Virus record (IMG/VR): IMGVR_UViG_3300032116_014461
Location: 1-64,000 of that record
Length of the DNA stretch: 64,000 nucleotides
Direction: 5' to 3' (one strand)
Source of the DNA: a virus
In this document: in pieces, positions 279-19,583 of the stretch
Layout of the letters: every line of letters begins with the position of its first letter
How positions within the stretch are numbered: position 1 is the stretch's first letter
The notes under the pieces: generated by a model
The model's database searches: none
What the model saw: only the letters and a program-made list of their open reading frames with translations
Told to the model about the DNA's origin: nothing
Made by a program: the position numbers and the translations under genes

Positions 279-1355
279 ATGATTATTGATAATATCTTCA
301 ACATCAAAACTTATGCCGGTAGTCAAGCGTTGCCTTTATTTAATGCTCCTAATACCTTAGCAACCAACCCAGCATACACAACATTTCTGAATAATATATT
401 TACGATTTATGGAACACAAACAGTAGATGGTTCTATTCCTGTATTCTATAAAACTAATAATGTTCCAGATCCTAAATCGTCTCTAAGAGCCTTAGACCCT
501 CAGCAGTCTTACTATTTTATTAGCAAGGCTGACGCCGTACTTCCATATAATATCCCTTATCTTGGTAATCTGTTACCAGCTCCGTATCGCAATTGTCCTA
601 CGGTAGACGTAATACCTTCTAAGGTCACATTAACGGCGTCTTCTGGCAATTATTATTACTTAATTAATGATGTTGGGAATCTTAATACAGCATATCCATA
701 TACATATGAAGTTAAGGTTTTAAGCACCAATTGGAAAGTTACAACATTAGCTCCTTCCGGCACAGTAGCCAGTTCCCAGCCCACAAATACCATCATATCT
801 GCACTAAGATTTGATACTGATGCTGGTGTTACAGACTATTCAACCTTTTTACCTCCATCTACATCATCTAGTCAAATAGATCGTAATAATTTATTTGCTA
901 TTGTAGAAGTGTCATTAAATTCTCCTCAAAATATTGATTGTCCTAAAATAGTAGATTTAATGCTCCTACAGTGTAATAATTGCATTCCAGCCCCATCCCC
1001 AACGCCAACACCAACAGTAACAACTACTCCAACACTAACTCCTACACCCACTCCTACCAGAACACCAGCGCCAACATTTGATAGTCAACTCACAACCGTG
1101 CAAAACAGTACTCCAGTAACGGCTAATGGAATTACCTTTACGGCTGGTATCGGAGATAGACTAGACTATAGTGTTATTTCTCCAAGAGTTGGACAGGCTA
1201 GGGCGGTCAATATCTTTGTTGGAGCTACACAAGTAGCCAGAGTAGATTATACTTCTGACTATGTAAGTAGGACTTTTAGGTACTATAGAGCTTCAACAGG
1301 AGTGTCCTATATCGGCACATTCTCTGATACCGTTAATGGAAATATTAATTTTTAA
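279..1355 (+). CDS. Beta-rich structural protein with Thr/Pro linker
   Basis: A 358-residue protein whose ATG is preceded by an AAGGA Shine-Dalgarno sequence. Three parts are visible: a beta-rich N-terminal region (about 1-237) with scattered aromatic and Cys residues, including CNNC near 232-235; a Thr/Pro linker at about 238-268; and a compact beta-rich C-terminal domain (about 270-358). The linker type is shared with the next genes and separates folded modules, as is common in viral fibres and secreted adhesins. I do not recognise the two folded regions. The position upstream of giant mosaic proteins suggests a virion surface or fibre component. That role is inferred from context and composition only. 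Confidence 0.75.
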   Translation: MIIDNIFNIKTYAGSQALPLFNAPNTLATNPAYTTFLNNIFTIYGTQTVDGSIPVFYKTNNVPDPKSSLRALDPQQSYYFISKADAVLPYNIPYLGNLLPAPYRNCPTVDVIPSKVTLTASSGNYYYLINDVGNLNTAYPYTYEVKVLSTNWKVTTLAPSGTVASSQPTNTIISALRFDTDAGVTDYSTFLPPSTSSSQIDRNNLFAIVEVSLNSPQNIDCPKIVDLMLLQCNNCIPAPSPTPTPTVTTTPTLTPTPTPTRTPAPTFDSQLTTVQNSTPVTANGITFTAGIGDRLDYSVISPRVGQARAVNIFVGATQVARVDYTSDYVSRTFRYYRASTGVSYIGTFSDTVNGNINF

Positions 1356-1373
1356 TCATAGAATAGGACGATT

Positions 1374-4300
1374 ATGCCTATAACAATAAATAAGCAGTAT
1401 CAGTTTATTAAATTTTTAGGATCTGCGAACTTAAATCTTAGTACATTATCTGGCGCTATTACAAGTGAAATTGCTGTTATATACGGAATTTCTTCAGATG
1501 GCTCTTCGTATTTATCTTGGAGCAATAGTGCTTTCTCTAGTTTGCAAAATTTAGAGACATATAAAACTTATTTAGTAGTTAGTAATAGTGCTAGTCCAAA
1601 CTATACCTTATATTCTGGTTCTGAGGTTGTTGACGATAGTACTAGTACTGAGATTACTACCACAAGAGCAATGGAAACATACAGAGGTACAGTTCCATTA
1701 ACTCTGAGTAGTGCTAATTTTAGAGATAAACTTTTATTAATTTATGGTGTTTCCAACGACGGTCTGGGTTTCGTGTCCTATAGTCCATCTTCTCAGTTTA
1801 ATAGTTTAACTAGTTTACAACCCAATGTAGGATATGAATTTGTTACTAACGGCACTCCTTTTACTCTTTGGCTGGCTCCTGGAGCATCTCCTACACCAAC
1901 AGTAACTTCTACAGCCACTCCCACTTTAACGCCCACAACAACACCAACTAAAACACTCACGCCCACACCAACGCTAACTGCAACAGTTACTTCGACGCCA
2001 GCAGTAACAGCTTCTTCTACTCCTACCACCACCCCAACTCGTACAGCAACACCAACTGCTACATTAACTCCTACTCCAACGACTAGTCCATTATTAAGTC
2101 CTAATTTTGCGAACTATAGTAGTCAAGCTGTGTTTAAGGCACTACCTAATAGTAGTACAGTTGGAACAAACGGATCCAAGAGCGCTTATGATTGTTATGA
2201 CATGAGCGGTAACGTATCTGAGTGGGTTGGTCAAGGAACAGATATTTGTTTAAGAGGTGGTAATTTTTCATCTTCTTTAAACGATATCTCTAAGTACGGT
2301 AGACTTGTCGTTTCTGCCACAGCCTCCGACCCTGCTACTGGATTTAGAATTGCCACTTCTGGAACCAATGGAGATCATTTAGGATTGGGTAATTTTGCTT
2401 TTGTGGGAGATACTACCAACATGGCAGATGCTGATACCAATTATGGAGCAGTAGCTTATTCTTATAGAATATCTAGATTTCCAGTTACGAATGACGAATA
2501 TTGTGCTTTCTTAAACAGTCAGGCAAAACTTGACACTAGAGCACTTTATAATTCTCTTATGGGTAGTGATACTGAGCGTGGAGGTATAGTTCGTGGAGGA
2601 GTCGCTAATTCTTATTATTATGTTAGTAAAATGCATCATGGTAATAAGCCCATAAATTATGTAAATTGGATAGACTGCGCTAGATATTGTAACTGGCTAC
2701 ATAATGGAGCTACAGATACTAGTGATACGGAAAATGGAGCATACACTATTAATCCATTGGGTTCTGTTGTTAGAAATCCTGGAGCTAAATACTGGATACC
2801 TTTAGAAAATGAATGGTATAAAGCGGCATTTTATGATCCAACATCTGGTGGATATTACCAATATAGTACACAAAATAATACGGGGCCAACTCCGGTAACA
2901 CTTAATACCAATGGTGACGGTTCGTTCTCTCCGTCCTCCGTTGTTGATAATGGACAAATATTAGTTGTTGATTCTAATAAGATGACTATTTTGGATCCGT
3001 TAAATCCAAGTAATAATATTGTAAATATATCAGATATTAGTTTGGTGCCAAATAGTGTAGCAGTAGGACCTTTTAGAGATGATGCGTTTATTTCAAATTC
3101 TGCTGGTCTAGTAGATGTTATTAGTCTAACATCAACAAATATTGGAGATTGGACAAAAGTCTTATCTTTAGCTGCTGGCGCAGATGCAAGAAAATTACTT
3201 GTAAGTTCGGACGGATCCAAGCTATATTGTTTAAACTATGCCGACAAAACTATTACAGTGTATGATTTATTAGGATCTCCTAAATATGCTACTAGAATTA
3301 TTATGGACTATCGTAATTCTGGTACTATCTACGATTTTTGTAACGGAGAAGATTCTAATACCATCTATGTAACTTGCTCTAATGGATATGTGGCCAAAAC
3401 AACAATTGCTGGTTCATCCTATGAGACTAATGTTTATTACTACTATCATAACTATAGCCAAGCAACATCTATAGCTTTCCTACAAAATCAGATTTATGTG
3501 TCTTTAGTAGATAATAGTCCAGCACTAAAAATTCGCAATATTAATACCGGGGCAGAAGCAACTCTTAACATTATTGGCTTGAATAATTCTGGTCAGGCTT
3601 CCACAGTAACAGCTTCTTCTGTTTCTTTGCATAGTGATCAGTATAATAAGTATTTAATTTTTACTGGACACATATCTAATCTTAATAGAGCTGTTATATA
3701 TTACTATAATACTATATCTAATAGACCTGTTTCTATTAGCTATAGTGATAGCACATCTATTACTGGTATATATACCAATATTGCACAAAATAAAGACTTT
3801 GCATATTTATTTGCTGGCAATAGACTATTAACATTCGATTCTACCAACAAGTACTTTAGAAGTTCGGCAATAGTAACTACTAATTTTAGTAGTTCATCTA
3901 TCAAAGATATTGCTTTTAGAAGTAATGTGGCAGTCCCGGCACCATCACCATCTGCCACACCAACAAATACGGCCACACCCACCAGAACACCGACCAATAC
4001 GCCGACCGTCACTCCGACTAATACAATTACTCCTACCTTAACATCAACACCCACACCGACACCAACACAAGAGCCACCAGTAGTATATTCTAACGCTATT
4101 GTAGCTGCTGTTGGTGCTAATGATGTTGGTCAGCTTGGAGACGGAACATATGGATCTTCGAAATTCTTTAAACAGATTACCGCTCCTTCTGGTAATATAT
4201 TTAATTATAATGTTAGAGCTAGTGCTTTAGGTAGTCATAATCTGATTATTGATTCTAATAATAGACTTTGGGGATGGGGAAATAATGATAGAGGACAGGT

Positions 4301-5174
4301 TGGACCATCATCATGGGGTAGTTCGGCTCCTTCTGGGGACCCTCTTAATATTAATCCTTCTACTATTGCGTATGATGCTATAAGTAATAAATATGCTATA
4401 TTTGGTTTGTCTAGTAATATAGTAAATGTTTCCACTAATGGTTCGGTATGGACTAACGCAACAATAGGCACCGCTTCACCATCGTTAAACTGGACAACTG
4501 CTATTGGATGGAATAACAATACTTCTACCGGAGGTGGCTCGGCGCAAGTCAATCAATATTCTATTTTTGCATTAGCGAATAATTCTAATGTTCTTGGTGT
4601 GTACAGTAATTCAAACAATACTTGGTCTTCCTTAAGTCTGCCAGTAACCAGAAACTGGACATCTATGACCCAGGCCAGAAATAAGATCTATGCCTTTGCT
4701 AGTAATAGTAATAATGTATTTGTAATAACTCCAGGATCTAATAATACGATTACAACAACCGACGTAAGTTTAGGTCTTGGTTCTTTGAATGTGTTTTGGA
4801 AAACTTCGGCAGTTAATAGTAATGGATCTACTATAATAGCTATAGGCTATGATTCTAGAACAATAGTAAAAAGTATAGATAGTGGTTTGTCATGGTCACA
4901 AACGGGCGTTTCCTTGCCTTTAGTAGCAAAATGGGAAAAAATAATTTGTTCTAATAATAGATGGATACTAATTGCCTCTGATCAGGAAAGTGTATATACT
5001 AGTGATGATAATGGATCTACTTGGACAACCCGCAGCACAAATAGTATGAATCCTTCTTGGACTCAAATATCTATTTATAATAATACTATTGTTTTAGTGG
5101 GACTAAATAATAACTACTACTTAACAAGCACCGATAACGGCACATCTTGGAAAAAACGATTCTTAGGCATATAA
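1374..5174 (+). CDS. Mosaic fibre/adhesin with permuted FGE-like module, propellers and Thr/Pro linkers
   Basis: A 1266-residue mosaic protein; an AGGA motif precedes the ATG. N-terminal residues 1-170 hold two related beta units, each with an IYG(I/V)S-DG motif. A Thr/Pro linker follows (about 171-243). Next comes a formylglycine-generating-enzyme (FGE)/C-type-lectin-like module in permuted order: the usual C-terminal half (GNVSEW, RGGNF, GFRIA, about 244-328) precedes the usual N-terminal half (RFPVTNDEY, INYVNW, ENEWYKAAF, about 360-505). A YVTN-like propeller (about 520-855), a second Thr/Pro linker (856-901), a short RCC1 segment (903-986) and BNR/Asp-box repeats (SxDxGxxW type, to the C-terminus) follow. 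The Cys pair of true FGE enzymes is not seen after RGG, so binding rather than catalysis is likely. A receptor-binding or fibre role is inferred. Confidence 0.85.
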   Translation: MPITINKQYQFIKFLGSANLNLSTLSGAITSEIAVIYGISSDGSSYLSWSNSAFSSLQNLETYKTYLVVSNSASPNYTLYSGSEVVDDSTSTEITTTRAMETYRGTVPLTLSSANFRDKLLLIYGVSNDGLGFVSYSPSSQFNSLTSLQPNVGYEFVTNGTPFTLWLAPGASPTPTVTSTATPTLTPTTTPTKTLTPTPTLTATVTSTPAVTASSTPTTTPTRTATPTATLTPTPTTSPLLSPNFANYSSQAVFKALPNSSTVGTNGSKSAYDCYDMSGNVSEWVGQGTDICLRGGNFSSSLNDISKYGRLVVSATASDPATGFRIATSGTNGDHLGLGNFAFVGDTTNMADADTNYGAVAYSYRISRFPVTNDEYCAFLNSQAKLDTRALYNSLMGSDTERGGIVRGGVANSYYYVSKMHHGNKPINYVNWIDCARYCNWLHNGATDTSDTENGAYTINPLGSVVRNPGAKYWIPLENEWYKAAFYDPTSGGYYQYSTQNNTGPTPVTLNTNGDGSFSPSSVVDNGQILVVDSNKMTILDPLNPSNNIVNISDISLVPNSVAVGPFRDDAFISNSAGLVDVISLTSTNIGDWTKVLSLAAGADARKLLVSSDGSKLYCLNYADKTITVYDLLGSPKYATRIIMDYRNSGTIYDFCNGEDSNTIYVTCSNGYVAKTTIAGSSYETNVYYYYHNYSQATSIAFLQNQIYVSLVDNSPALKIRNINTGAEATLNIIGLNNSGQASTVTASSVSLHSDQYNKYLIFTGHISNLNRAVIYYYNTISNRPVSISYSDSTSITGIYTNIAQNKDFAYLFAGNRLLTFDSTNKYFRSSAIVTTNFSSSSIKDIAFRSNVAVPAPSPSATPTNTATPTRTPTNTPTVTPTNTITPTLTSTPTPTPTQEPPVVYSNAIVAAVGANDVGQLGDGTYGSSKFFKQITAPSGNIFNYNVRASALGSHNLIIDSNNRLWGWGNNDRGQVGPSSWGSSAPSGDPLNINPSTIAYDAISNKYAIFGLSSNIVNVSTNGSVWTNATIGTASPSLNWTTAIGWNNNTSTGGGSAQVNQYSIFALANNSNVLGVYSNSNNTWSSLSLPVTRNWTSMTQARNKIYAFASNSNNVFVITPGSNNTITTTDVSLGLGSLNVFWKTSAVNSNGSTIIAIGYDSRTIVKSIDSGLSWSQTGVSLPLVAKWEKIICSNNRWILIASDQESVYTSDDNGSTWTTRSTNSMNPSWTQISIYNNTIVLVGLNNNYYLTSTDNGTSWKKRFLGI
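1885..2094 (+). repeat. Thr/Pro codon-repeat linker in the 1374-5174 gene
   Basis: A run of about 70 codons that is almost entirely Thr, Pro, Ser, Ala and Val in a degenerate TPT-x-TPT pattern. Synonymous codons vary (aca/act/acg/acc, cca/ccc/cct), so the DNA is not a perfect repeat and the protein composition appears to be what is conserved. Shorter copies of the same type are at about 984-1071 and 3946-4077. Confidence 0.85.
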
Positions 5175-5200
5175 TATAAGTACAATATCAAGGATATACT

Positions 5201-8200
5201 ATGGCTAATTTTAGAAATCTTATCACAGGTAATGGGATACTACTAGGATTGTCTGACGACAATCAGATGTATGTTTTAGGAGATAATACTAATAAAAATT
5301 TAGTATCTAGAATAGGTAACGATGGACCATTATATGCTGCCGGATGGAAGTCTGCATCTGTTAACGCAAAACATTCCGCCGCAATAACAAACAATGGACA
5401 GCTATATGTGTGGGGAGATAATGCATACGGCCAATTGGGTGTTGGTGGTTCAATATCATCATCTATGGATCCTATATTATTAGATAATAGCGAATGGTTG
5501 AGCGTAAGTTGTGGAGCTAGACATACTATTGCTATTCAGAAGGACGGATCTTTATGGGGTTGGGGATCCAATCAGTTCGGACAACTAGGCCCTAATGCTT
5601 CTGCTATACAATATATACCATACAGAATATCCGAGCCTTCTTTTAATAATGTGTCATTGCTATTGCACCTTAATGGTTTTGCTGGTACAACTAATATTTC
5701 TGATAGTTCTCTATTGCCTAAAAATGTCAGAATCGTCGGTTCTGGTAGACTTTCTTCTACTCAGTCCAAGTTCGGCGGTATGTCGTACTATTATGGAGAT
5801 ACTACCAATAGTGCTATAGACGCCAATGGCTCATATGAAGATTTAAAATTTGGTACTGGCGACTTTACAATAGAAGGATATTTTTATCTTAATAGTAATA
5901 GTAGTGATAATTTTCTATATGATACAAGACACCCATCGTATGGTGGAGACGGATCCTATGCTTATGTTACATCTACCGGTATTCTCAATGTAGAAGGTCA
6001 AACGACCATTGTGATGCCAACGAATCGTTGGGTGCATGTGGCTTTTAGTAGACAGTCTGGTATTTTAAGAACTTTTTTTGATGGAGTATTAGTTTATACT
6101 CAAACATCTACCGCTAATTACAATTCTGGATATTGTTATATAGGTGGCGCTGCCTACTATCCTGTTGGTGCTTCTCCATTTAGGGGATACATAGATGAGA
6201 TAAGAGTAACCAAAGGCATATCAAGATACGTTTCTGCGTTTACAGCACCAGCTGTGCAATTCATTGACTCTAGTGATGCTTATCTCAAAATTTCGGCTGG
6301 ATCATTCTTTAATCTTGCTATTAAAGCAGACAATACTCTATGGAGTTGGGGAGATAATTCATATGGACAATTAGGAACATCTTCTACAGTAGTCTCAAGA
6401 CCAACACTATTACAGGTAGGTCTAGACAATAACTGGAAAGATATTGTGTGTGGTGATAGCCATGCTTTAGCAGTAAAATTAGATGGTTCGCTATATTCTT
6501 GGGGATATAATAGTTTCGGTCAGTGCGGGCTTGGTACACTTAATGAGAGTTATAGTAGCCCGGTGGCTGTTACGGGAGTTGCTGATGGAGTCGTAAACTA
6601 TCCAATTTTAGGTATTACTTTAGACAATGAAAAACGCATAGCGTGTGGTAAAAATCATAGTTTCATTATAGCCAGAACATCTCTCGGAGATAATATACTA
6701 TACGGAGCAGGAGACAACAGTAATTCGCAATTAGGTACAGGTAACAACGACCCCAAAAGAATATTTACTGCAATAGATCTAAGCAGGAGATTCGTTTCCA
6801 CAGATGCTGGAGTCAACCATAGTCTTGGTAAATTAGACTTGCCAGAAAATCAACCAACCCCTAGTCCAACAGCAACAACTACACCCACACCCACTCTTAC
6901 AGCCACAACAACCCCCACTGTTACACCAACCAAAACAACCACTCCTACTGTTACACCAACACAGTCATCTACTCCAGTAGGACCTCCTCCGTCACCATCT
7001 CCAACCACCACAATATCACCAACTCCTTCACTACCGGCTAGAGCGGGTTTTAGTTGGTTTCCTATCAACATAGTATCTAGGGCCTTAAATAGTATAGTTT
7101 ATAGTTCTAAGTTAGATAGATTTGTGGCAATGCCGAGAAATGGTAATATTCCAGCTATATCTGAAAATAGCACAGCCACTAGTTGGATAGATACGAATGC
7201 CTTACCGGCTAGTATGGCAGAACCCGAAGTTATTGATGCTAAACACTATTTATTTTCTTATGAGCCATCCATTAGTACTAGATCTAATGGTAATAATATA
7301 GCTATCTCTAATGATGGATTCAATTGGATTAATAATACTGTTGTTAGAACAGATTCAAATAACTATAGCATCACCAGCGCAGCCTCATATGCTCACCCAT
7401 CAAGTGTTGATGGACATATCATAGCTGTTGGTCCAGTAGCAAATAGTGGTAGTCGCACAGCATTAAGATATAAAAAGATAACAGTTAAAGATACGAACAA
7501 CATTACTGCTAGTATGATCCCAGAAAGAGATTTTGCACCCTTCTTAGATACAAATAATAGACCTATTTTAACAGCTAATACAGCTAATTATAATAATTAT
7601 GTCGGTAGTGTTACAGACGTGAGGTACAACGGTGGTCCTAGCTACTATGGCGCTATGGACATGACAGGAAATGTAGACGAATGGACTAGCACATCTGGTA
7701 CTGGAGGAACATCATTCGTAGCGTTGGGAGGTAATTATACCACCATTAATCCTTCTAAAAATAGTACTGTTTCTATACCATCTTCTATTAATACGGTTGC
7801 CACACGCGGGTTTAGAGTCGCCAGTATCACCAATCCAACCACCAACTATGGCGAATTTGTGTCTGTGGGAGATATCAATAACGACTCAGATAACGGCATA
7901 GGTTCTGTAACATCTGAATACCGTATTGCGAAATATCCAGTAACTAATATAGAATATGTAGAATTTTTAAATGCGGTACAACCAAGCGGAAGTATCAGCG
8001 AACTACATAATATTCCTGCTATAACAGATAAAGATATTGGTATTAAATTACCCTATACAATTTCTAGTACTATAGAAACTAATTCTAATTACTCAAAAGG
8101 TATAGCAATAAACCCTAATACCAACCGAGCATATGTTTGTAAGTATTATGATAATACTGTTGTTGTTATCAATCTTAATACTTTGACAATAGAAGCAACT

Positions 8201-10354
8201 ATTAATGTTGGATTTCAACCATGGTCTGTAATATGCGATGTCACCAATAATAGAGTCTACGCATCTATCTCCGGTTCTAATAGGGTTAGTGTCATAGACG
8301 GCAACAATAATACTATTATTGGCAATATTGTTACTGCAAATATACCAAGATACATGGCATTAGATACCGTAAATAACAAACTCTATATATCTCATGTTGG
8401 TGCTAACTCTGTTGGAGTTGCTAATGTAAATAATATTACAGCCAATATGACTTTACAAAATTCCATCTCTATTTTGGGTACCCCTCTTGGCTTGGCCGTA
8501 GATTCCGTAAATAATAAATTATATGTTGGATTCTCTGCATCTTCTTTGTCTAATATTAGAGTTATTAACACAGCTAATTTAGCTACAATATCAACCACAA
8601 ATTTAGAGACAAACACATTTCCATTTGACCTGAAGCTGACCAATGATGCAAGTAAGCTGATTATAGCCGAGAGCAATAACAATACATTAGCTATAATGAA
8701 TACAACGACCTACATTGTATCATCTAGGGTGTCCTTGGGGGCTAGGCCAGGCGGTCTTGTATTAGATGCTCAAAACAAGGCATATGTTTCTGGTTACGAC
8801 CAAAATAGTCTGATTACAGTAGATACGAATACCGGAGCTATTGTTAATAGAACTATAGTAATAAATGGAACTAGTCAAGTAGAAAATATAGCCTTGGCTA
8901 ATAATAAAATTTATCTAGTCGGATGGACTACTAGTAAAATCTATACTGTTGAATTGTCAACATCGTATGCTGTTATTCCTGGTATGGAATATAAGCCAGT
9001 ATCACACATTAATTGGTATAATGCTGCACGTTATACTAATTGGTTATCTAATGGTAAACCGAATGGTGTTCAATCATCAACTACAACAGAAAATGGAGCA
9101 TATCAACTATCTGGTAATAGTGGTAATCCAACGCTTAATATTACTAATCCAAATACTGGATCGGCACCATCTTATTTTCTGCCATCTAGAAACCAATGGT
9201 ACAAAGCCGCATACTATAAGGGCGGTAGTACCAATGCTGGGTATTGGCTATATGGTAATGCATCAGACACACTCAATCCAGCATATTTGTTTGGTAACAG
9301 CTTAGAGAATTTACCATCTTCCAACAGTGTTGTTAGAGTAAGAAAAGATGGTCTAGTTGTTGTTGCTGGTCAGGGTTTTGTATTGATGTCAAATATAATG
9401 CCCAATAGTATTCCAAGTTGGAATTATCATACCCTCTCCGAATTAGCGGAACCTGTTGATATACTATTTGGAGACAATAATAGGATTATTATCCTACAAA
9501 AGGCTTTGGGTACAGTTTCGGCTAATAATAAATACTATTATAGCGATGCGGTTAATTATGCTAATACATATCCAACAATTAACTGGAATATTGGTACATT
9601 ACCAGCCACCACATCCACAACCACCATAGGTGCATCGTCTTATGATAATGGTGTTTTTGTTGTTGTACCATTAGGTGCTTCCTTATCTGCTTCTTCTTTT
9701 GTTTCCTACGATGGCATTAGTTGGAATACGATTTCTTCTACAGTATTATCTAATAAAATATGGAGAGGTCTGGCTAGTAAGAGTAATCTATTTGTTGCTG
9801 TGGGAGACAATTCTCCATTAGCTGCCATTAGCTATAGTGATATTAGAGTTACTCCTACACCCACTACCACCCCAACAGTTACACCATCTAATTTAGGTAT
9901 AGTTATTACACAACATCCTAAGAATGTTGATATAGTTTTAGTAGCAGATAATAATGCTGGCGGAGTAGCTATATTTAGTGTAGTTGCTTCTTCTAGACAA
10001 CCCATATCATATCAGTGGTATGAGTCTGTTAATAATGGAGCGTTTGTTGCTATTCCAGGAGCCACACTAAATAGTTTATCTATCAATAATATAACCAGTA
10101 GTAAACATAATAATAGATACTATGTAAAACTAACTTCTGGAACTATTATTGTTGATAGCAATATAGCAACATTAAATGTATTTACTAATTCGCCTATTGC
10201 TATTTTACAACAACCCAGTAGTACGACAGCAGTTAATGCATCAGCATCCTTTACTGTATTGGCCACTATTAATTATCCTTCTCCAACACCAACTACCACA
10301 ACAACCACAACCCCAACACCTACTCCCACAGTGACACCCTCTGCGTCTGTGTGA
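5201..10354 (+). CDS. Giant mosaic adhesin: RCC1 propeller, LamG, BNR, permuted FGE-like module with inserted propeller, Ig
   Basis: A 1717-residue protein; AAGGA lies upstream of the ATG. Modules in order are RCC1 repeats (1-146, WGDNAYGQLG type), a LamG/concanavalin-like domain (about 147-356) that interrupts one RCC1 blade, further RCC1 blades (360-543), and a Thr/Pro linker (550-611). BNR-like sequence (615-766) follows, then a permuted FGE-like module: C-half at 787-876 (DMTGNVDEW, GFRVA), N-half starting at 884 (KYPVTNIEY). The N-half is interrupted by a YVTN-type propeller (about 947-1253) and resumes at YKPVSHINW (to about 1363). Then come BNR-like sequence (1370-1548), a short linker, one Ig-like domain (1566-1663), the first third of another Ig domain, and a Thr/Pro tail. 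Likely a virion fibre or receptor-binding protein. Confidence 0.85.
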   Translation: MANFRNLITGNGILLGLSDDNQMYVLGDNTNKNLVSRIGNDGPLYAAGWKSASVNAKHSAAITNNGQLYVWGDNAYGQLGVGGSISSSMDPILLDNSEWLSVSCGARHTIAIQKDGSLWGWGSNQFGQLGPNASAIQYIPYRISEPSFNNVSLLLHLNGFAGTTNISDSSLLPKNVRIVGSGRLSSTQSKFGGMSYYYGDTTNSAIDANGSYEDLKFGTGDFTIEGYFYLNSNSSDNFLYDTRHPSYGGDGSYAYVTSTGILNVEGQTTIVMPTNRWVHVAFSRQSGILRTFFDGVLVYTQTSTANYNSGYCYIGGAAYYPVGASPFRGYIDEIRVTKGISRYVSAFTAPAVQFIDSSDAYLKISAGSFFNLAIKADNTLWSWGDNSYGQLGTSSTVVSRPTLLQVGLDNNWKDIVCGDSHALAVKLDGSLYSWGYNSFGQCGLGTLNESYSSPVAVTGVADGVVNYPILGITLDNEKRIACGKNHSFIIARTSLGDNILYGAGDNSNSQLGTGNNDPKRIFTAIDLSRRFVSTDAGVNHSLGKLDLPENQPTPSPTATTTPTPTLTATTTPTVTPTKTTTPTVTPTQSSTPVGPPPSPSPTTTISPTPSLPARAGFSWFPINIVSRALNSIVYSSKLDRFVAMPRNGNIPAISENSTATSWIDTNALPASMAEPEVIDAKHYLFSYEPSISTRSNGNNIAISNDGFNWINNTVVRTDSNNYSITSAASYAHPSSVDGHIIAVGPVANSGSRTALRYKKITVKDTNNITASMIPERDFAPFLDTNNRPILTANTANYNNYVGSVTDVRYNGGPSYYGAMDMTGNVDEWTSTSGTGGTSFVALGGNYTTINPSKNSTVSIPSSINTVATRGFRVASITNPTTNYGEFVSVGDINNDSDNGIGSVTSEYRIAKYPVTNIEYVEFLNAVQPSGSISELHNIPAITDKDIGIKLPYTISSTIETNSNYSKGIAINPNTNRAYVCKYYDNTVVVINLNTLTIEATINVGFQPWSVICDVTNNRVYASISGSNRVSVIDGNNNTIIGNIVTANIPRYMALDTVNNKLYISHVGANSVGVANVNNITANMTLQNSISILGTPLGLAVDSVNNKLYVGFSASSLSNIRVINTANLATISTTNLETNTFPFDLKLTNDASKLIIAESNNNTLAIMNTTTYIVSSRVSLGARPGGLVLDAQNKAYVSGYDQNSLITVDTNTGAIVNRTIVINGTSQVENIALANNKIYLVGWTTSKIYTVELSTSYAVIPGMEYKPVSHINWYNAARYTNWLSNGKPNGVQSSTTTENGAYQLSGNSGNPTLNITNPNTGSAPSYFLPSRNQWYKAAYYKGGSTNAGYWLYGNASDTLNPAYLFGNSLENLPSSNSVVRVRKDGLVVVAGQGFVLMSNIMPNSIPSWNYHTLSELAEPVDILFGDNNRIIILQKALGTVSANNKYYYSDAVNYANTYPTINWNIGTLPATTSTTTIGASSYDNGVFVVVPLGASLSASSFVSYDGISWNTISSTVLSNKIWRGLASKSNLFVAVGDNSPLAAISYSDIRVTPTPTTTPTVTPSNLGIVITQHPKNVDIVLVADNNAGGVAIFSVVASSRQPISYQWYESVNNGAFVAIPGATLNSLSINNITSSKHNNRYYVKLTSGTIIVDSNIATLNVFTNSPIAILQQPSSTTAVNASASFTVLATINYPSPTPTTTTTTTPTPTPTVTPSASV
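6856..7032 (+). repeat. Thr/Pro codon-repeat linker in the 5201-10354 gene
   Basis: About 59 codons of Thr/Pro/Ser-rich repeat separate the RCC1 propeller from the BNR and FGE-like part. A short relative occurs at about 9850-9888. Similar linkers are at 18022-18132 and 18838-18912 in the LamG gene. Confidence 0.85.
10276..10351 (+). repeat. Thr/Pro tail that ends a gene inside an Ig domain
   Basis: About 25 codons (start PSPTPTTTTTT, end PSASV), then TGA. It directly follows the A/B strands of an Ig-like domain (QQPSSTTAVNASASFTVLAT). The rest of that domain begins right after the start codon of the next gene, so the linker plus gene boundary sit inside one fold. Confidence 0.75.
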
Positions 10355-10400
10355 ATGGTGTAATTACTAATATAATTCATTTAATATTAAAGGCTAAATT

Positions 10401-13400
10401 ATGGGATTAACGTATCAATGGCAAGTATCAACAGATAGTACGGCGACAGTATTCGTTGACTTACAAGACGGTCCATTGGTATCTGGAACCAAGACTCAAA
10501 CACTATTATTTAATAATTTAACAGTAGCAGATAACAATAAAAAATATCGTGTTGTTATTGGCAGTACAGATTTTAATGTGGCTCCTGTGGTTAGTGATGC
10601 CGCCACACTATTTACAGCACCGACAATCACTTTGAGCACAATAGCCGATATTGCTACAACAGACACAACAGCAACATTTAGTATTAGTGGTGTTGCGAAT
10701 ACTGGGGTAATTAGTTATCAATGGCAGAAAAGAATACCATGCGCCCCGACTGCCACAGAACCATGCTTTATTAATTTGGTAGACCAAGCAGGCTCAGTAA
10801 GCGGATCACTTACGCCGAATCTAACATTATCCGGCTTAACAGCCTCTGTACACAATAATTCTCAATATAGAGTTGTAGCTAGCGCACAGTGTTGTGGAAC
10901 AACAGCTATTACACAATCATCAAATACAGCCACATTACAGGTTGCTACAGTAGGACAATCATTATTTATTACTAAAGATTTGACAGATGCTATAATCGCT
11001 ACAGATAAAACTGCTTCTTTTAATATTGAAATTCAAACAACAACCACAAATTCTACACCAGTACCAGTAACATTTGTATGGCAGAAATTAGTGGGTGGCA
11101 ACTGGACCAATGTTACTAATAATCAGCCGATTCAAAGTTCGGTTATCAGTTCTACACTATTACTATATAAGCAAACTCTTTCTATTATTGGAGCCGCCGA
11201 CAATGAATCTTACAGGGTTATGGTTAGCGACGGCAGATCATCTCTTACCAGCCTAACTGCAAAAACCAAAAATCCGGCAACCTGTGCCGATTGTGGTGGC
11301 AGTGGTACTGGAGATCCTCACTTTTATTTAGGAAATAATTACGGTTTTGATGATAATCCCATTGTTAATGGACATAAAGAAATTGTAATGCTTTATATTA
11401 AGAATAAAAAAGACAATACAGAACACGTATTAACTTGTAAAAATACTGGAACTTTTGGTAGGTCTTCTCCATATAATGTAGAAAGAACTTCTTATACACA
11501 ATTTAAAGATGGTAAGATAGTTGGTACCAGAGTAGACAACGCCAAAGCAGATATGATGGGCGTAGCTATGATGAACGCCAGCCCAGGAACTTTCGGTTTT
11601 AAATGGTCAATATTGAATGCTGCAAATATCAATAAAGCACCAGATTTAGATATAGTAATTGGCGGCGCTTGGTATTGGATGTGTAAATCTTTAATTCAAT
11701 ATCTAAAAAAGAATCCAGCTTTTATGAACCTAGGATGGCCATATATCGGTTGGATTCATGCGGATGGTATTGGTTTGGGATTGGCTCCGTATAATCTTAT
11801 CAGAGAGAATTTTGAAATAGATAATTTATATCTTAAAAATAGTGGAAGTGCAAATATCGATGGTTTTTATATAGCTTCTAGTAAAGATGATAAAAATAGC
11901 ACCAGATACAACAAAGACAACAGTGCCTACTCTATTATTAGAGATCGTGGAATATGGCAAATTAAAACTAGAGTATTGTCTACTGTTAACGCTAGTATGA
12001 TTTCTAATACTAAATTTAGTATTAGTATATCTAAGTATGTAGATGCTGAAAGTTTAAGCGTAGGACTTGGTGTTGGTGGTACAACCGCTGGTATGTTTTC
12101 TGGCAATCCTGTGATATCTTCTATCTCATATAATTATCCTACCCAAGCCCGTGCCAGAGAAGACCAAACAGCCATCACTGCTGAAATTACCGTTAGTGGT
12201 GGACAGATTCTTAATAGCGGATCAGTAATATTTGGATATTTTGTAGACACAACAAATGGTAATAATACAGTTACTCTTCCAAATATATTTACCGCCGCTG
12301 ATACATATATTGGTCAAAAAATTAATATTACCGGCGCCACAGCCGCTAATACCACAATTACTAATATTAACGGAAACACATTAACATTAAGTAGTAATTG
12401 CACAGCCACCGGTAGATTCCCATTGGAAATTATTTATGCTGAATCTTTTGAAGACAATACTATTTCTCCAGATTTGTCTGGTGGATGGCTGAAAGATAAA
12501 AATATTATTCTAGATATCAAATTATTACCGTTATTATCTAGTCCCGAAGGATTATCAAAAATTTCAGAAGATATTAGTGCAAACCCTCGTTTTTGGCACG
12601 AACTATCATTAGCATTATCTGGTAAACCATTAGATGGAACTCCTGTAAATAGTATTGTATCTCATCCCAAAGATACCATTTCTATCAATGGAACAGCGTC
12701 GTTTACTGTTACTGCTGAATTTACTAATTCTAAATATCAGTGGCAAAAATCAACCAATAATGGCGTATCTTGGACAGATATTGCTGGTGCCACAAATTCT
12801 ACTTTAGTTGTTAACGCCATCAAATCTGATAATGGTACATTATACAGAGTAAAAGTAGATAGCCTACTGACTAGCAATAGTGCCAAACTATCCGTTCCTG
12901 CGACTTTAAAAATTACTCAAGAACCTTCAAATGTGAATGCTACTAATCTAGAGGCTGTATTTAGTGTGGTGGCTAGTGGCGTACAGCCCATAACATATCA
13001 GTGGCAGAAATCAGACGATAACGGTATTAACTTTACTAATGTTGCCAACAATAATTTATCAACTTTAGCATTAAGTAATCTGAGAGCCGAAGATGACAAC
13101 GATCTATATAAAGTTTTAATATCAGATGGTGCTGGGGACTCTTACGCCTCAGCCCCTTATAGGCTATCTATAAACCCAGTACTTTCTGTTACGTCACAAC
13201 CAACAGACCAAACAGCCTCAGAAGAAGAAACGGCCACATTTAATGTCTCCGGAGTTTGCAACAACGGACTACTTAAATATCTATGGGAAGTATCAACAAA
13301 TAATGGCGTATCATACGCCGTAGTTGGACAACCTTCTTATTCTGGTATACTAAACTTAAGTGGACTTAAAATTTATGACAATAATAAGCTATATAGAGCC

Positions 13401-15074
13401 AAGCTTATTTCTGACATTAAGAATAATTTTATTTATTCTAGTGGTGCGAGATTATTGGTTCCTAACAGCCTTACAATAATTACTCAGCCAGCAAACACTA
13501 TTTCTTCTAGCGGAAATGCCACCTTTTCCGTGGGTGCAAATTCTACTCAGCCGCCATTGAGTTATCAGTGGCAAACACAAGCCCCTCAGTCTAATAACTG
13601 GACAGATCTCGTATCTGCAACAGGATCTACCCTAAATATTTCTGGACTAAAACTGGTAGACGATAACACTAAATATAGAGTCGTATTAACAGATCAAAGA
13701 GGTTCTGTTTATAGTGAAAATGCTATTGTAGATACCACTCCACAGATTTCTATTACACAAAACATTTCTGGTTATACTAGTAATGACTATAAGCTCAATC
13801 TTAGAGTTGATGCTGCTATTTTAACAACCACACTAGAAAACACCTCTGGAAGTTTGGCATATAATTGGGAAAAGGCCAACCCTGGGTCTAGCTTATTTTC
13901 TCCACTAACCGGCATACCAGCTAGTCAAAACTATTTATTAGAAGACCTTAAGGTGGCAGACAGCGGAGTAAGATATAGGGTTAGATTGAGCCTACCCGGA
14001 GCTAGAGATGTTTACTCTAACACAGCTCAAATAGATGTACCACAATCTATTACAGTGAATGTTAAAACTCCTATTGTAGCAAAAATTAATTATCCTAATA
14101 CTGATATAACTTTATCTGTTGATGCCACCACTAAAGTACCACCACTAAGTTATCAATGGCAAAAAACTAGTACTACCAATAGTATTATCAACTATCAGTT
14201 CCCTAATAATGATCCTTTCTATGATAGGGTCGAACTCTTTATGGAAATGAGTGGTGTTTCTGGCACAAGATCTTTCATAGATTCTACCAACAAAACTTAT
14301 ATTATTCCATATAGAGACGATTCTATATATAACCAATCTGCTGATATCAAATTATCTAATTTAGATTTTAAGTCTGCTCCTACTAGTGCTAGATTTAATG
14401 ATATATATAGTCATTTAAGAGTATTTGATAGTGGCAATAGTTTATATTTTGGTAATAAGAATTTTACTATAGAATATTGGTATAAACCAACAGCATATTC
14501 TGAAATGAGCGTTGTTTCTCGTAGACGTAATAGTTCATGGCCTAATTATGGTAATGTTGGCTGGACTTTAAGTAGTACTCGTTTTAGAGCTAAAATAGGA
14601 GGAGTTTGGAGTAATGATTGGATTAATGATAATGGTAATCTAGCTACTATACCAGTAAACGAATGGACACACGTCGCATTGACTCGCTATAATAATACAT
14701 ATAGATTATTTAGAAATGGTTCGATGGTTGGCAGTTTCTTTAATGACGGAATACTAGACGAAACTTCTGGACCGTTGGTAATAGGAACATCTAGTTCTAC
14801 TCAGATTGATGGAACAGAAAATAGTTATAGTTTGGTTGGTTTTCTAGATAATTTAAGAGTTACTGTTGGATTGGCTAGATATACACAAAACTTTATTCCA
14901 GATACTATAATAGATACTGATTATCAAGTTGCTACTACTAGCAATACTTTTACAAATATACCAAATGCGACAGGCAACACACTGACATTAGAAGGATTGA
15001 CTAGCACCAATAACCTAGAACAATATAGGGTTGTTCTAACGGATCCTGTTTCTACAGTTATAATAGAGAACTGA
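10401..15074 (+). CDS. Ig-repeat fibre protein with GDPHF-type insert and terminal LamG
   Basis: A 1557-residue protein with an AAAGG ribosome site. It begins inside an Ig-like fold: after Met-Gly the sequence is LTYQWQ, the C strand of an Ig domain whose first strands are at the end of the preceding gene. Two more Ig-like domains (about 73-180, 181-294) follow. A roughly 450-residue region opens with GDPHFYLG, recalling the start of von Willebrand factor D domains but not confirmed beyond that motif. Five further Ig-like domains (about 750-1215) carry the YQWQ...L...YRV pattern. The last Ig domain is interrupted after YQWQK by a LamG-type domain (roughly 1270-1500) and resumes before the stop. 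TGA ends the gene two codons before the next ATG, in the same frame. Probably a long virion fibre. Confidence 0.85.
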   Translation: MGLTYQWQVSTDSTATVFVDLQDGPLVSGTKTQTLLFNNLTVADNNKKYRVVIGSTDFNVAPVVSDAATLFTAPTITLSTIADIATTDTTATFSISGVANTGVISYQWQKRIPCAPTATEPCFINLVDQAGSVSGSLTPNLTLSGLTASVHNNSQYRVVASAQCCGTTAITQSSNTATLQVATVGQSLFITKDLTDAIIATDKTASFNIEIQTTTTNSTPVPVTFVWQKLVGGNWTNVTNNQPIQSSVISSTLLLYKQTLSIIGAADNESYRVMVSDGRSSLTSLTAKTKNPATCADCGGSGTGDPHFYLGNNYGFDDNPIVNGHKEIVMLYIKNKKDNTEHVLTCKNTGTFGRSSPYNVERTSYTQFKDGKIVGTRVDNAKADMMGVAMMNASPGTFGFKWSILNAANINKAPDLDIVIGGAWYWMCKSLIQYLKKNPAFMNLGWPYIGWIHADGIGLGLAPYNLIRENFEIDNLYLKNSGSANIDGFYIASSKDDKNSTRYNKDNSAYSIIRDRGIWQIKTRVLSTVNASMISNTKFSISISKYVDAESLSVGLGVGGTTAGMFSGNPVISSISYNYPTQARAREDQTAITAEITVSGGQILNSGSVIFGYFVDTTNGNNTVTLPNIFTAADTYIGQKINITGATAANTTITNINGNTLTLSSNCTATGRFPLEIIYAESFEDNTISPDLSGGWLKDKNIILDIKLLPLLSSPEGLSKISEDISANPRFWHELSLALSGKPLDGTPVNSIVSHPKDTISINGTASFTVTAEFTNSKYQWQKSTNNGVSWTDIAGATNSTLVVNAIKSDNGTLYRVKVDSLLTSNSAKLSVPATLKITQEPSNVNATNLEAVFSVVASGVQPITYQWQKSDDNGINFTNVANNNLSTLALSNLRAEDDNDLYKVLISDGAGDSYASAPYRLSINPVLSVTSQPTDQTASEEETATFNVSGVCNNGLLKYLWEVSTNNGVSYAVVGQPSYSGILNLSGLKIYDNNKLYRAKLISDIKNNFIYSSGARLLVPNSLTIITQPANTISSSGNATFSVGANSTQPPLSYQWQTQAPQSNNWTDLVSATGSTLNISGLKLVDDNTKYRVVLTDQRGSVYSENAIVDTTPQISITQNISGYTSNDYKLNLRVDAAILTTTLENTSGSLAYNWEKANPGSSLFSPLTGIPASQNYLLEDLKVADSGVRYRVRLSLPGARDVYSNTAQIDVPQSITVNVKTPIVAKINYPNTDITLSVDATTKVPPLSYQWQKTSTTNSIINYQFPNNDPFYDRVELFMEMSGVSGTRSFIDSTNKTYIIPYRDDSIYNQSADIKLSNLDFKSAPTSARFNDIYSHLRVFDSGNSLYFGNKNFTIEYWYKPTAYSEMSVVSRRRNSSWPNYGNVGWTLSSTRFRAKIGGVWSNDWINDNGNLATIPVNEWTHVALTRYNNTYRLFRNGSMVGSFFNDGILDETSGPLVIGTSSSTQIDGTENSYSLVGFLDNLRVTVGLARYTQNFIPDTIIDTDYQVATTSNTFTNIPNATGNTLTLEGLTSTNNLEQYRVVLTDPVSTVIIEN

Positions 15075-15077
15075 AAA

Positions 15078-18000
15078 ATGACACAAATTTATACCTCGAA
15101 TACAGTATTAGTAACAGCCAAAGCTCCTATTGTGAACTTTTCCGAGGGAGACTCTGCTACGTTAGTCGCAGATGTAAATATAATATGGATCAACCCCGGT
15201 TCCGCACAAAGGTTTTTAACTCATAAATGGCAGGAGTCAAATGACAACGGCGTGACTTGGAGAGATATTAGTTCTGGAACCACAGACCACCCCTTATCAA
15301 ACAATAATCTAGCGCCCACAAAAACTACTTCATTATTAGATAATCAATTAACTGATTTAGAACTATCAGAATTTAATATAGCTAAAACCAAACCTATTGT
15401 AGCATCTTTAACTGTTGATAATGTATTATTAAATCAAGATAATTATTTATATAGATGCATAGTATTATTATATAATAATGACCTTAATACTATAGAGAGT
15501 GCTGGAACTAGTCAGAATATTTTTCTAAATGTTTCAGAGAAGAAAACAGGACACATATTACCAGCTTTCGATATTCCTTGGGATCCAATGAATCCTCGTG
15601 GTGTTATCAAGTCTGGTAATCTAAAGTTTGATCAGAATACAAAAATTGAACTCTTTAAACTAACTAAAGATGCTTGTGGCACCCAATGGCGAATTATAGA
15701 AGTAGGTTATAGTTCACAATATTTAAATGGAAATATCACTAATGGTATACCTGTCGGATTACCCAAGACGTATGGACCAAATGACCAAACATATCCAGGA
15801 TATATGGAATTACAATTTTACTGTAATAATAATTGGGTCACTCAAGAATCTTGGATTTCTTTAGAAGGAAATGACGAACACACCCTTGACAAATACGGTC
15901 CAGTGTCCCCTGTAACAATAGCAATTAACGGACAAACACTACTTCAAGAAACTTCTCTTGGTACACAAGATAATCCATTGGTAATTCAGCCAACACCAAG
16001 TGCCGATGGGGATACATCTTTAAATGTTACTGGTGCTTCATCTAGTAGTTCGGTATCTGTGTCTTGGAATGGTACTGCTTTGGGTCTTGGCGGGGTTATT
16101 GGTATCCAAGCGGCTGGTACACAAACTATCACAGTTCCAGCATCTTTTGCGTTGCCAGTACAGGTAACTATTACTGGTGGATGCGATGATGATCTAGTTG
16201 TCAATGGACAAATTATTAATCAAGATAACAGTGCCGGTTCTGTTAATTATACTTTTAGTTGTGAGACTAGAACATTCACTGTAAGTGTTTATAATGCTGT
16301 AGCGGGTGGGACTGCCTATGACTACAATATTTCTTTTGCTGGCACTCAAAGTAATAACACTGCCGTATCATCTATTAGAGCAGATACCACGAACATATTA
16401 ACGATATCACAAGCTTCTGAGACAAAGAATGTTACAATTAATGGAAATAATAATAGCTGGACCGAAGCAGGTATCAATGTACAACAAGGATCTAGACTGT
16501 TTATATCCACAACAGGAAACATACAGTGGTCTACAAATAATTTTAGTAGTCCTTCTGGAGTAGCCTCTGGCAATAATATTCTATATAGTGGTATCCCTCA
16601 ATCTGCTCTAGTCGGTCGTATTGGTACTACGGGAACTCCTTTCTATGTTGGCGAAAACTATAATAGTTTTGCTGATAGTAGTGGTCCGTTATTTTTATCT
16701 GTTAATGACAATATTAAAAATGATAATACTGGATCGTATATATCTGTAATTAAATACGCAACTCCTGATCCATTGGGTATTAAGGTCACCACACTGAATC
16801 CTGAAGCTTATGATGTTAATACTCAAGATCTGGACTTTTCAAAAGTATCTTTATTATTAACAGCTGATGATGATTCTATTAGTGATGTTTCTATTAAGAA
16901 TAGAACTTTTACCAGTTCATCTGTTGATTTTACTAATCAAATTAGTACTTTTGGAGAATATTCTTCTGGTTATACCAATAATGGTTATACTGTTACTAAT
17001 TCTGATAGTTCGTTAGGTTTTGCTGGGGACTTTACTATTGAAGGGTGGTTTTATTTTACAAAAAATAATGTTGGATATCAAGGCTTGATGTCTACCTATA
17101 GAACTAGTGATATTAGTGGATGGATATTGGTATTAGAAAGTAATAATACATTAAGATTTTATGCCACAAATGCTGGAATTACGTGGTATTGGCCAATGTC
17201 TATATCCTCTAATTACGTACCCACACTAAATAAATGGACATATATAGTTATTCAAAGACTTGGGTCATCAGCGAAAATGTTTGTTGACGGCATAGAGGTT
17301 GGGTCTACATCTAATAATCTCGATATTACGAGTGGCTCTAAGATAGAAATAGGTAGTTATTTATATTTTCCTGGTGGACGCAAATCATTACAGGGATATG
17401 TGGGTGAAGTTAGAATCACAAAAGGATTAGCTAGATATCCACTAAATAATCCACAAATTCCTAATAAGCCATTTCCCAAAAAATCTTATAGTGCTACTCA
17501 AATTATAGATATTTCTGGTAGTCAAAAATCAGCCACTCCAGTATATGATAGTAGCGGCAAATTCTTATACTATGAATTTAATTCGAAAAATAGCTATATT
17601 GGACCATATAATGAACCAGGACAGTTGAGTTTGGTATACTCCTATAGTAATGGCACACAAGTATCTGCTCAGACACCGGGAGAAGCATACTTTCAAGCTT
17701 TTGATGGCAGTAATAGATATTTTAGAAAATTAGGTGTTTATGATCTAGATTGTTGTTATCAATATCCTAGTTACTCTCCTGATGATGGTTATTATATTCT
17801 AACTAAAAGGGCAGATGGTCAGTGCGTAGTATTCGACAGTGTTAGGTGGTATGCTGTCAATGGATATGAAAAAGGTAAAATAATTCCGTGTATTACTATT
17901 CCTGAGTCTATTGGACATCCTAATGATAGTGCTACATGGAGATCTATGGGATATGGTAATAACTGTTGCAATACAGACGGTACAAAAAATTATTATGAAC

Positions 18001-19583
18001 TTACCGATGAAATATTTTTTGCTCCTACTCCCACGCCAACCGTTACTCCTACTAGTGTAACCCCGACACCAACCCCCACAGTTACATCAACCATTACAGC
18101 AACCCCCACGATAACACCATCTGTTACAACTTCGGCCGTTCCTCCTGCTTTCGATAGTTTATATAGCGATGTTATATTACTAATGAATATGTCTGGAACG
18201 AATAATAGCAAAACTATTATTGATTCATCATTATTAAATAATACTATTGTTGCTACAGGCAATGCCGCCATCTCGACTGCTCAAAGTAGATTTGGAGGAT
18301 CTAGTTTATTGGTGCCAACAGCAACATCTAGCCGTAATGGTATATATCTTTCAGCATCTAATGAATTCAATTTTGGTTCTGGTAATTTTACTGTAGAGTT
18401 TTGGCTTAGACAGAATAGTACTCCACAATCTGGTGCTCGTATATTTCAAACCACCGAAAATAATGACTTAAATTCTGGAGTAGACATATACTATCCCAAT
18501 AATACTAACGCTATTGTTGTTAAGCTTTCTGATAGCGACAACAATATAGCCACACTATCTTTAGGTAGTGCTGATACATCTACATGGAATCACTATGCTG
18601 TAGTAAGAAATAATCATAGTATTATTACATACAGAAATGGAGCACAAGTTTCTTCACAATATAAGATTATGAATTTGTCTAATGCTTCTGGTAATATTGT
18701 TGTTGGTGGAAATGCTACAGTCGGACCCAATAGATCGATAAATGCCTATATTGATGATTTTAGAGTTACAAAGGCCGCTAGATATACTAGTAATTTTAGT
18801 AGTCCAGCTTTTCAGTTGGTGAATATTGGACCACCTATAAGTCCTACGCCGACTACTACTTCTACTCCTACACCTACTAGTGGCTTTATACCTTCTCCAA
18901 CACCAACTCCTTCTAGTACCAGTGTTGGCGATCCTCTGTGGAATAGTGTTGCTTTGTTGATGCCTTTCGATGGTACAAATAATGCGACTACTCTTGTAGA
19001 TGTATCGAACAATCCATTAACTATAAACAATGCCAGTAATTTCATTACTTTGAAAACAGATATTAAAAAATATGGATCTGCAAGTGCATTATTACCTGGT
19101 TCCACCTCTAATTCTCAGGCCACATCTTCTTCTAATAAACTTATTGTAGGGACATCAGACTTTACTATAGAATTATGGGCTTATAGAACCTTAAATAGTA
19201 CAGATAGAGGTATATTGCACTTAAGATCCGGATTTGATACCTATAGTGGCCTAGCTATTGGTGTTAATACTATTGGTAGATGGGCAGCATATATCGGAGG
19301 ATCTGAAAGAGCATCAACAGTATTAGCTGCTGAAAATAGCTGGGTACATTTAGCTCTGACAAGATCTTCAGGAACTACTAAGTTTTGGGTGAACGGAACA
19401 GAAGCTATATCTATATCCGACACAACTAACTATACTATGAATACTATAAATATTGGTAATTGGTATGGTGATACCTATCGATTTACAGGATATATTGATG
19501 ACTTAAGAATTACAATAGGGGCTTCTAGATATGGGGCCGTTTCCCCATTCGCTCCTCCTTCATCATCACACCCAACATCATAA
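15078..19583 (+). CDS. Fibre/adhesin with Ig strand, three LamG domains and Thr/Pro linkers
   Basis: A 1501-residue protein starting two codons after the previous TGA and in the same frame. A weak AGAGAA lies seven bases before the ATG, so coupling or readthrough is possible. The N-terminus (YTSNTVLVTAKAP) looks like the final strand of an Ig domain, followed by a complete Ig-like domain to about 155. Beta-rich regions follow, then a LamG-type domain (about 585-800), a Cys-rich segment (about 885-975, with two CC pairs), a Thr/Pro linker (982-1019), a second LamG (1025-1251), a second linker (1253-1281) and a third LamG (1285-1495). The LamG copies share DFTIE(G/L)W, W..(Y/L)...R and YIDD(L/F)R motifs. 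These lectin-like folds suggest glycan binding on the virion surface. Confidence 0.85.
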   Translation: MTQIYTSNTVLVTAKAPIVNFSEGDSATLVADVNIIWINPGSAQRFLTHKWQESNDNGVTWRDISSGTTDHPLSNNNLAPTKTTSLLDNQLTDLELSEFNIAKTKPIVASLTVDNVLLNQDNYLYRCIVLLYNNDLNTIESAGTSQNIFLNVSEKKTGHILPAFDIPWDPMNPRGVIKSGNLKFDQNTKIELFKLTKDACGTQWRIIEVGYSSQYLNGNITNGIPVGLPKTYGPNDQTYPGYMELQFYCNNNWVTQESWISLEGNDEHTLDKYGPVSPVTIAINGQTLLQETSLGTQDNPLVIQPTPSADGDTSLNVTGASSSSSVSVSWNGTALGLGGVIGIQAAGTQTITVPASFALPVQVTITGGCDDDLVVNGQIINQDNSAGSVNYTFSCETRTFTVSVYNAVAGGTAYDYNISFAGTQSNNTAVSSIRADTTNILTISQASETKNVTINGNNNSWTEAGINVQQGSRLFISTTGNIQWSTNNFSSPSGVASGNNILYSGIPQSALVGRIGTTGTPFYVGENYNSFADSSGPLFLSVNDNIKNDNTGSYISVIKYATPDPLGIKVTTLNPEAYDVNTQDLDFSKVSLLLTADDDSISDVSIKNRTFTSSSVDFTNQISTFGEYSSGYTNNGYTVTNSDSSLGFAGDFTIEGWFYFTKNNVGYQGLMSTYRTSDISGWILVLESNNTLRFYATNAGITWYWPMSISSNYVPTLNKWTYIVIQRLGSSAKMFVDGIEVGSTSNNLDITSGSKIEIGSYLYFPGGRKSLQGYVGEVRITKGLARYPLNNPQIPNKPFPKKSYSATQIIDISGSQKSATPVYDSSGKFLYYEFNSKNSYIGPYNEPGQLSLVYSYSNGTQVSAQTPGEAYFQAFDGSNRYFRKLGVYDLDCCYQYPSYSPDDGYYILTKRADGQCVVFDSVRWYAVNGYEKGKIIPCITIPESIGHPNDSATWRSMGYGNNCCNTDGTKNYYELTDEIFFAPTPTPTVTPTSVTPTPTPTVTSTITATPTITPSVTTSAVPPAFDSLYSDVILLMNMSGTNNSKTIIDSSLLNNTIVATGNAAISTAQSRFGGSSLLVPTATSSRNGIYLSASNEFNFGSGNFTVEFWLRQNSTPQSGARIFQTTENNDLNSGVDIYYPNNTNAIVVKLSDSDNNIATLSLGSADTSTWNHYAVVRNNHSIITYRNGAQVSSQYKIMNLSNASGNIVVGGNATVGPNRSINAYIDDFRVTKAARYTSNFSSPAFQLVNIGPPISPTPTTTSTPTPTSGFIPSPTPTPSSTSVGDPLWNSVALLMPFDGTNNATTLVDVSNNPLTINNASNFITLKTDIKKYGSASALLPGSTSNSQATSSSNKLIVGTSDFTIELWAYRTLNSTDRGILHLRSGFDTYSGLAIGVNTIGRWAAYIGGSERASTVLAAENSWVHLALTRSSGTTKFWVNGTEAISISDTTNYTMNTINIGNWYGDTYRFTGYIDDLRITIGASRYGAVSPFAPPSSSHPTS

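Follow-up and report, generated by a model that had tools for sequence, protein, structure and literature searches.

The question raised by this locus is whether a gene boundary that cuts through a folded domain marks a point at which two adjacent subunits complete that domain between them, or is the scar of a gene fission. The window (the whole 64,000-nucleotide stretch that was analysed) is part of a 65-kb virus record in IMG/VR and contains a series of very large plus-strand genes beside phage-type replication genes, namely a split DNA polymerase, a primase, a DnaB-like helicase, a UvsX-like recombinase and a ribonucleotide reductase. The polymerase occupies two ORFs (matching phrog_405 at 56-614 and 622-1055), which in the window flank a DnaQ-like exonuclease gene; in all four related contigs its halves likewise lie in separate ORFs some 0.9 kb from each other, with 63-100% identity:

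47113-48735, 48741-49436 and 49614-51446, minus strand: split polymerase region (phrog_405 match)

Four consecutive large genes, referred to here as g1 to g4, encode products of 1266, 1717, 1557 and 1501 residues, respectively, that are built from adhesin-type modules (FGE-sulfatase/C-type-lectin-like domains, RCC1 repeats, a YNCE-type propeller, LamG domains and Ig domains) joined by Thr/Pro linkers:

1374-5174, plus strand: g1, first adhesin segment (ORF, Pfam)
5201-10354, plus strand: g2 (ORF, Pfam, Ig profile)
10401-15074, plus strand: g3 (ORF, Ig profile, comparison with the relative L046)
15078-19583, plus strand: g4 (ORF, Pfam)

The g1 product contains a permuted FGE-like domain, a propeller, the first part of an RCC1 propeller and BNR-like repeats before its stop. 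The g2 product begins with the remainder of the RCC1 propeller, into which a LamG domain is inserted, and continues with an FGE-like domain carrying an inserted YNCE-type propeller, an intact Ig domain (Ig A) and the left half of a second one (Ig B). In g3 the right half of Ig B is followed by Ig C and D, an unknown domain (GDPHFYLGNNYGFDDNP...), Ig E to I and an Ig J that lacks strand G, after which comes a TGA; g4 supplies the Ig J strand G, followed by an Ig K-like domain and three LamG domains with Thr/Pro linkers. All three internal boundaries of the four genes thus fall within a folded domain: the RCC1 propeller, Ig B and Ig J.

Nested domains include LamG in RCC1 (5642-6262), the YNCE-type propeller in the FGE-like domain (7991-8986) and LamG in Ig (14190-14915). 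Circularly permuted FGE-sulfatase-like domains occur in the window (2118-2888 and 7571-9274) and in two other contigs (L006, 15338-16135; L045, 3244-4119); in the domains examined, Pfam profile positions from the C-terminal part (about 154-254) come ahead of those from the N-terminal part (about 23-138), and the L045 copy has a second cut point, with 113-254 placed before 36-109. A nested BNR-like propeller around the g2 FGE-like domain, suspected by eye, is not proposed, since a Pfam search on the flanks gave no match. The unknown domain of g3 (11274-12630, about 450 residues; GDPHFYLGNNYGFDDNPIVNGHKEI...) is conserved and lies between Ig D and Ig E; it has no Pfam match above the cut-off and resembles the start of a von Willebrand D domain by eye only.

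The boundary between g2 and g3 is the one from which the question arose, and its parts are as follows:

9893-10189, plus strand: intact Ig domain A, in g2 (89 bits, profile 2-92 of 94)
10190-10273, plus strand: left half of Ig B, strands A-B, in g2 (profile columns 2-27)
10274-10351, plus strand: Thr/Pro tail of g2, 26 residues (sequence, comparison with L046)
10355-10400, plus strand: g2/g3 spacer, with an AAAGG ribosome-binding-like site at 10389-10393
10401-10619, plus strand: right half of Ig B, strands C-G, in g3 (profile columns 31-90)

The earlier note had described g2 as ending in the first two strands of an Ig domain, followed by a Thr/Pro tail and a TGA, and g3 as beginning at strand C of the same domain. 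Both descriptions hold when examined with a 94-column Ig profile trained solely on eight intact Ig domains from the same array: the g2 product ends in ...SPIAILQQPSSTTAVNASASFTVLATIN, which covers columns 2-27, followed by the tail YPSPTPTTTTTTTPTPTPTVTPSASV and the stop, and the g3 product starts MGLTYQWQ and covers columns 31-90. The note had further held that the joined pieces make one normal Ig domain. Rejoined without the tail, they match columns 2-90 of the 94 with 54.9 bits, a full-length profile match to an Ig superfamily domain of the I-set/Ig_3-like type, and the Ig neighbours of Ig B match Pfam Ig_3 and I-set. In leave-one-out scoring, with models built from seven of the eight intact domains, joined Ig B scores 54-65 bits versus 23-76 bits for the intact domains; neither half is therefore degraded. 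The core residues of strands B, C and F are all present, as F in ASFTV (g2), W in TYQWQ (g3) and Y in KKYRV (g3). The two genes differ in frame by +1, and the frame of g3 contains three stops ahead of its start, so that neither simple readthrough, which had already been discounted on account of the frames, nor a single frameshift can join them. Ribosome-binding energies at 10401 and 15078 are moderate, with no clear excess over background.

Beyond this cut, our analysis reveals two further cuts, at 15074/15078 and 5174/5201, and all three are also present in a diverged relative. The first of these divides Ig J between strands F and G, in frame across a single TGA:

14046-14180, plus strand: Ig J strands A-C, in g3 (Ig profile)
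14190-14915, plus strand: LamG inserted in the C-C' loop of Ig J (Pfam)
14916-15071, plus strand: Ig J strands C'-F, end of g3 (profile 40-78)
15078-15125, plus strand: Ig J strand G, N terminus of g4 (in frame with g3, one stop between)

The g3 product ends in YRVVLTDPVSTVIIEN and the g4 product begins with MTQIYTSNTVLVTAKA. In both phages, Ig J is an Ig-like domain without a strand that is carried instead by the next subunit. The remaining cut, between g1 and g2, lies inside the RCC1 propeller:

4080-4316, plus strand: first part of the RCC1 propeller, in g1 (profile WD40_RLD 2-80)
5201-5602, plus strand: RCC1 continuation at the g2 N terminus, MANFRN... (profile match, comparison with L046)

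The start of the WD40_RLD profile lies in g1 (2-80) and its end in g2 (148-293 and 197-362), the 197-362 match falling after the inserted LamG. By eye, eight RCC1 motifs can be counted in total across the two chains, which is not a clean seven-blade set.

The relative in question, L046, was found (as L046/L047) by a scan with the end of g2, which matched a 180-kb viral (phage) contig. Its copies of the four genes keep the order seen in the window, and each of the three boundaries falls at the corresponding fold position, although the proteins have diverged considerably: identity to the window over the aligned parts is 56% for g1, 50% for g2, 54% for g3 and 43% for g4, with 43-54% for the neighbouring structural protein (22709-28819). 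The pieces that adjoin the cuts are 73% (RCC1 part of g1), 69% (RCC1 start of g2), 64% (left half of Ig B) and 75% (strand G of Ig J) identical. Ig B is split at the identical residue (window, MGLTYQWQVSTDST; L046, MALTYKWQVSTDST), and the L046 copy also keeps the core F, W and Y. The new starts are common to both phages, namely MANFRN (MANFRNIITG in L046), M(G/A)LTY(Q/K)W and MTQIYTSNT, with L046 starting at the two Ig boundaries as MALTYKWQVSTDST and MTQIYTSNTILATA. The stops at these two boundaries, in contrast, are TGA and TGA in the window versus TAA and TAA in L046, and the spacers at the three boundaries are 26, 46 and 3 nt versus 28, 31 and 3 nt. Since stop codons and spacer lengths differ, it is the boundary itself that is kept and not the surrounding DNA. 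A motif, AAGGCTWAATT, precedes the ATG in the g2/g3 spacer of both phages. All three nested insertions of the window are kept in L046 as well.

The Thr/Pro tail, which the earlier note placed at the cut, is indeed there in the window, but the split does not depend on it. The g2 product of L046 runs through a Thr/Pro linker into a BNR/sortilin-like propeller (Sortilin-Vps10, 8e-11), and this propeller of roughly 330 residues separates the two halves of Ig B. The continuation of L046 g2 past the linker suggests that the tail in the window is probably a remnant of such a linker.

Comparison of the two phages also allows selection on the separate pieces to be estimated. The pN/pS ratio is 0.31 for the left half of Ig B (28 codons), 0.44 for the right half, 0.21 for strand G of Ig J (16 codons), and 0.31 and 0.33 for the RCC1 parts of g1 and the start of g2; intact Ig domains give 0.32-0.64. 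Because synonymous sites approach saturation, these ratios serve for comparison between domains only. On this measure, both halves of Ig B are under purifying selection equal to that on intact Ig domains. In addition, the conserved positions of each half coincide with those of 337 intact Ig domains (permutation p = 0.0175 and 0.027), which indicates that the isolated A-B piece still evolves as part of an Ig domain. It is very nearly certain, in our judgement, that the split is an old and maintained gene boundary. The same split residue in L046 and the purifying selection on both halves exclude a recent or decaying form of the gene-fission scar that was one branch of the earlier proposal, irrespective of the event by which the split arose; the other branch, completion of the fold in trans, would best explain why an orphan A-B hairpin retains its Ig core.

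Structure prediction bears on the right half. An AlphaFold model of g3 residues 1-183 (half Ig B plus intact Ig C), based on an alignment with 47 relatives, has a mean pLDDT of 87.7, with about 89-96 for the half domain. At such pLDDT values, strands C-G of Ig B may be able to fold by themselves. The CC'FG sheet of the half domain is modelled, and strand E is reduced to a two-residue bridge versus five residues in intact Ig C, as expected from the missing partner strand B; the model fits completion in trans and an independently folding half alike. The model, intact Ig C included, has an Ig fold, and its Foldseek matches, which likewise include Ig C, are Ig domains of Robo1, Dscam and RB49 Hoc. 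For Ig J, a tethered model from C' onward into g4, with the in-frame stop written as Trp, had low confidence around strand G (pLDDT about 60) and lends no support to pairing of this strand.

Ig domains near gene ends were examined in a set of about 100 Ig-bearing ORFs drawn from bacterial genomes, known phages and viral contigs. They are whole, the exceptions being the window and L046, which form one lineage, and a plain frameshift in L085; several cyanophage-like ORFs have a terminal, divergent domain with a weak score that lies beyond the resolution of this gene-end test. The L085 case (800-5925), tried as a second split Ig domain, was rejected: its Ig array is broken by a plain frameshift without a new start, probably a sequence error, and it shows what such an artefact looks like. 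A DNA similarity search of known phages found no relatives, and a search with the N-terminal half of g3 alone gave no confirmed relatives; L046 is the one independent relative in which the array was found. With the neighbouring structural genes as queries, nothing was retrieved beyond the contig of a near-identical strain and a relative at 79%, both ending before the region. A relative with 79% identity in the neighbouring structural gene (L005, 1-1533) has other modules immediately upstream, which by eye resemble fibronectin III and C1q/TNF domains, with Thr/Pro linkers; this end of the adhesin region thus turns over quickly.

Taken together, these data lead us to favour, as a probable account drawn from sequence comparison, that shared domains are completed in trans between successive subunits of a single giant adhesin. 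This accounts most simply for the conservation of boundaries within domains and for the continued constraint on both pieces as Ig or RCC1. Genes 1374-19583 would encode one giant tail adhesin in four separately translated chains, with the RCC1 propeller shared by g1 and g2, Ig B divided into A-B in g2 and C-G in g3, and Ig J into A-F in g3 and G in g4. Each shared domain would be completed in trans by the neighbouring subunit, and the chains would interlock non-covalently, in a fixed order and at a 1:1 ratio. The anatomy, the conserved boundaries and the purifying selection on the separate pieces are shown, and from them we infer a joint fold of the pieces, a place for the complex in the virion fibre and the order of assembly. 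As the gene layout suggests, the boundaries probably originated when a BNR-like propeller module with its own stop codon was inserted into a loop of the host domain, the remainder of which then gained its own start. That the lineage inserts modules into domain loops is shown by the uncut nested LamG in Ig J and YNCE-type propeller in the FGE-like domain. A broader version, which we put forward tentatively and at somewhat less than even chances, is an adhesin of about 6,000 residues whose four chains are stapled end to end by three trans-assembled domains of two folds (one RCC1 propeller and two Ig domains), domain sharing being a general way of building fibres that arises as module insertions bring gene ends into domain loops.

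The main alternative is that the halves are independent: C-G would make up a truncated Ig domain sufficient in itself, the A-B hairpin would pack on Ig A or stay loose, and the boundary would be an old, tolerated fission that links nothing. The high pLDDT of the right half alone is in keeping with this, as is the modularity of Ig arrays, in which one damaged unit in about eleven may be tolerable. However, the A-B piece keeps an Ig-type core over about 50% protein divergence with a pN/pS of 0.31, three of three boundaries are of this kind, and an unpaired strand E with an open core would be expected to relax or undergo repair; we consider this alternative rather unlikely. A functionless fission scar or truncation, recent or decaying, could draw on the absence from the window of the propeller found behind the linker in L046, by which this end of g2 has probably lost sequence, but the identical split positions in L046 and the purifying selection on both pieces make it very improbable.

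Recoding, whether by readthrough, frameshift or ribosome bypassing, would place the halves in one chain; in its favour, the g3/g4 junction is in frame across one stop. The g2/g3 junction, in contrast, would require a frame change and the skipping of several stops, and in L046 the passage of a whole propeller between the halves of Ig B; with several stops and differing spacers, the two frames are not separated by a single recoding step of the programmed type. At the in-frame junction the window has TGA as its stop and L046 has TAA, and the ATG codons are conserved. Frames, stops and L046 thus reject readthrough, a +1 shift and bypass alike, and we regard recoding as extremely improbable. An error of sequencing, assembly or annotation might be suspected in a metagenomic contig with Thr/Pro repeats that are difficult to assemble, but it is scarcely credible given an independent, diverged contig with identical boundaries and the different appearance of the frameshifted array in L085, which has no new start. 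L046 by itself rejects both a recent scar and an assembly error, and its boundaries, the pN/pS ratios and the conserved positions together exclude a fresh scar, decay, readthrough and misassembly.

If completion in trans is correct, a principle known from chaperone-usher pili and coatomer-type propellers extends to phage tail adhesins, with two unrelated folds completed in trans within one assembly. It would provide a simple rule by which chains made separately could assemble into giant fibres in order and at a 1:1 ratio, as well as natural split-domain pairs for protein engineering. Phage gene boundaries need not equal domain boundaries, and annotation ORF by ORF misses such domains.

The FimA subunit of chaperone-usher pili has no strand G of its own and is completed by a strand that the next subunit donates (PMC6615685). 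The arrangement of Ig J, which lacks strand G and is followed by a protein that starts with one, is similar to this donor-strand complementation. Unlike in the pili, however, the pieces of one Ig domain in the window are spread over four different, non-repeating subunits, the Ig B acceptor misses strands A-B and not G, and there is no chaperone or usher among the annotated neighbours of the adhesin genes. By analogy, the adhesin may be said to work like donor-strand complementation, and it would not be a member of the chaperone-usher family. A parallel for the RCC1 propeller cut between g1 and g2 is provided by Sec13 and Seh1, propellers one blade short that are closed by the domain-invasion-motif blade of a partner, locking the two chains (PMC9646525), although the window has RCC1 repeats rather than WD40 and phage adhesins known here from sequence alone. 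Phage tail fibres consist of shuffled modules that include Ig-like domains, and their usual mosaicism swaps whole domains or fragments between proteins (PMC10684548), whereas here conserved boundaries and insertions lie inside domains. Tandem I-set-like Ig domains are shared with RB49 Hoc (3shs), by fold match, and with arrays of T4-like cyanophages, by sequence match; in these phage Ig proteins, unlike in the window, the Ig domains examined stay within one gene.
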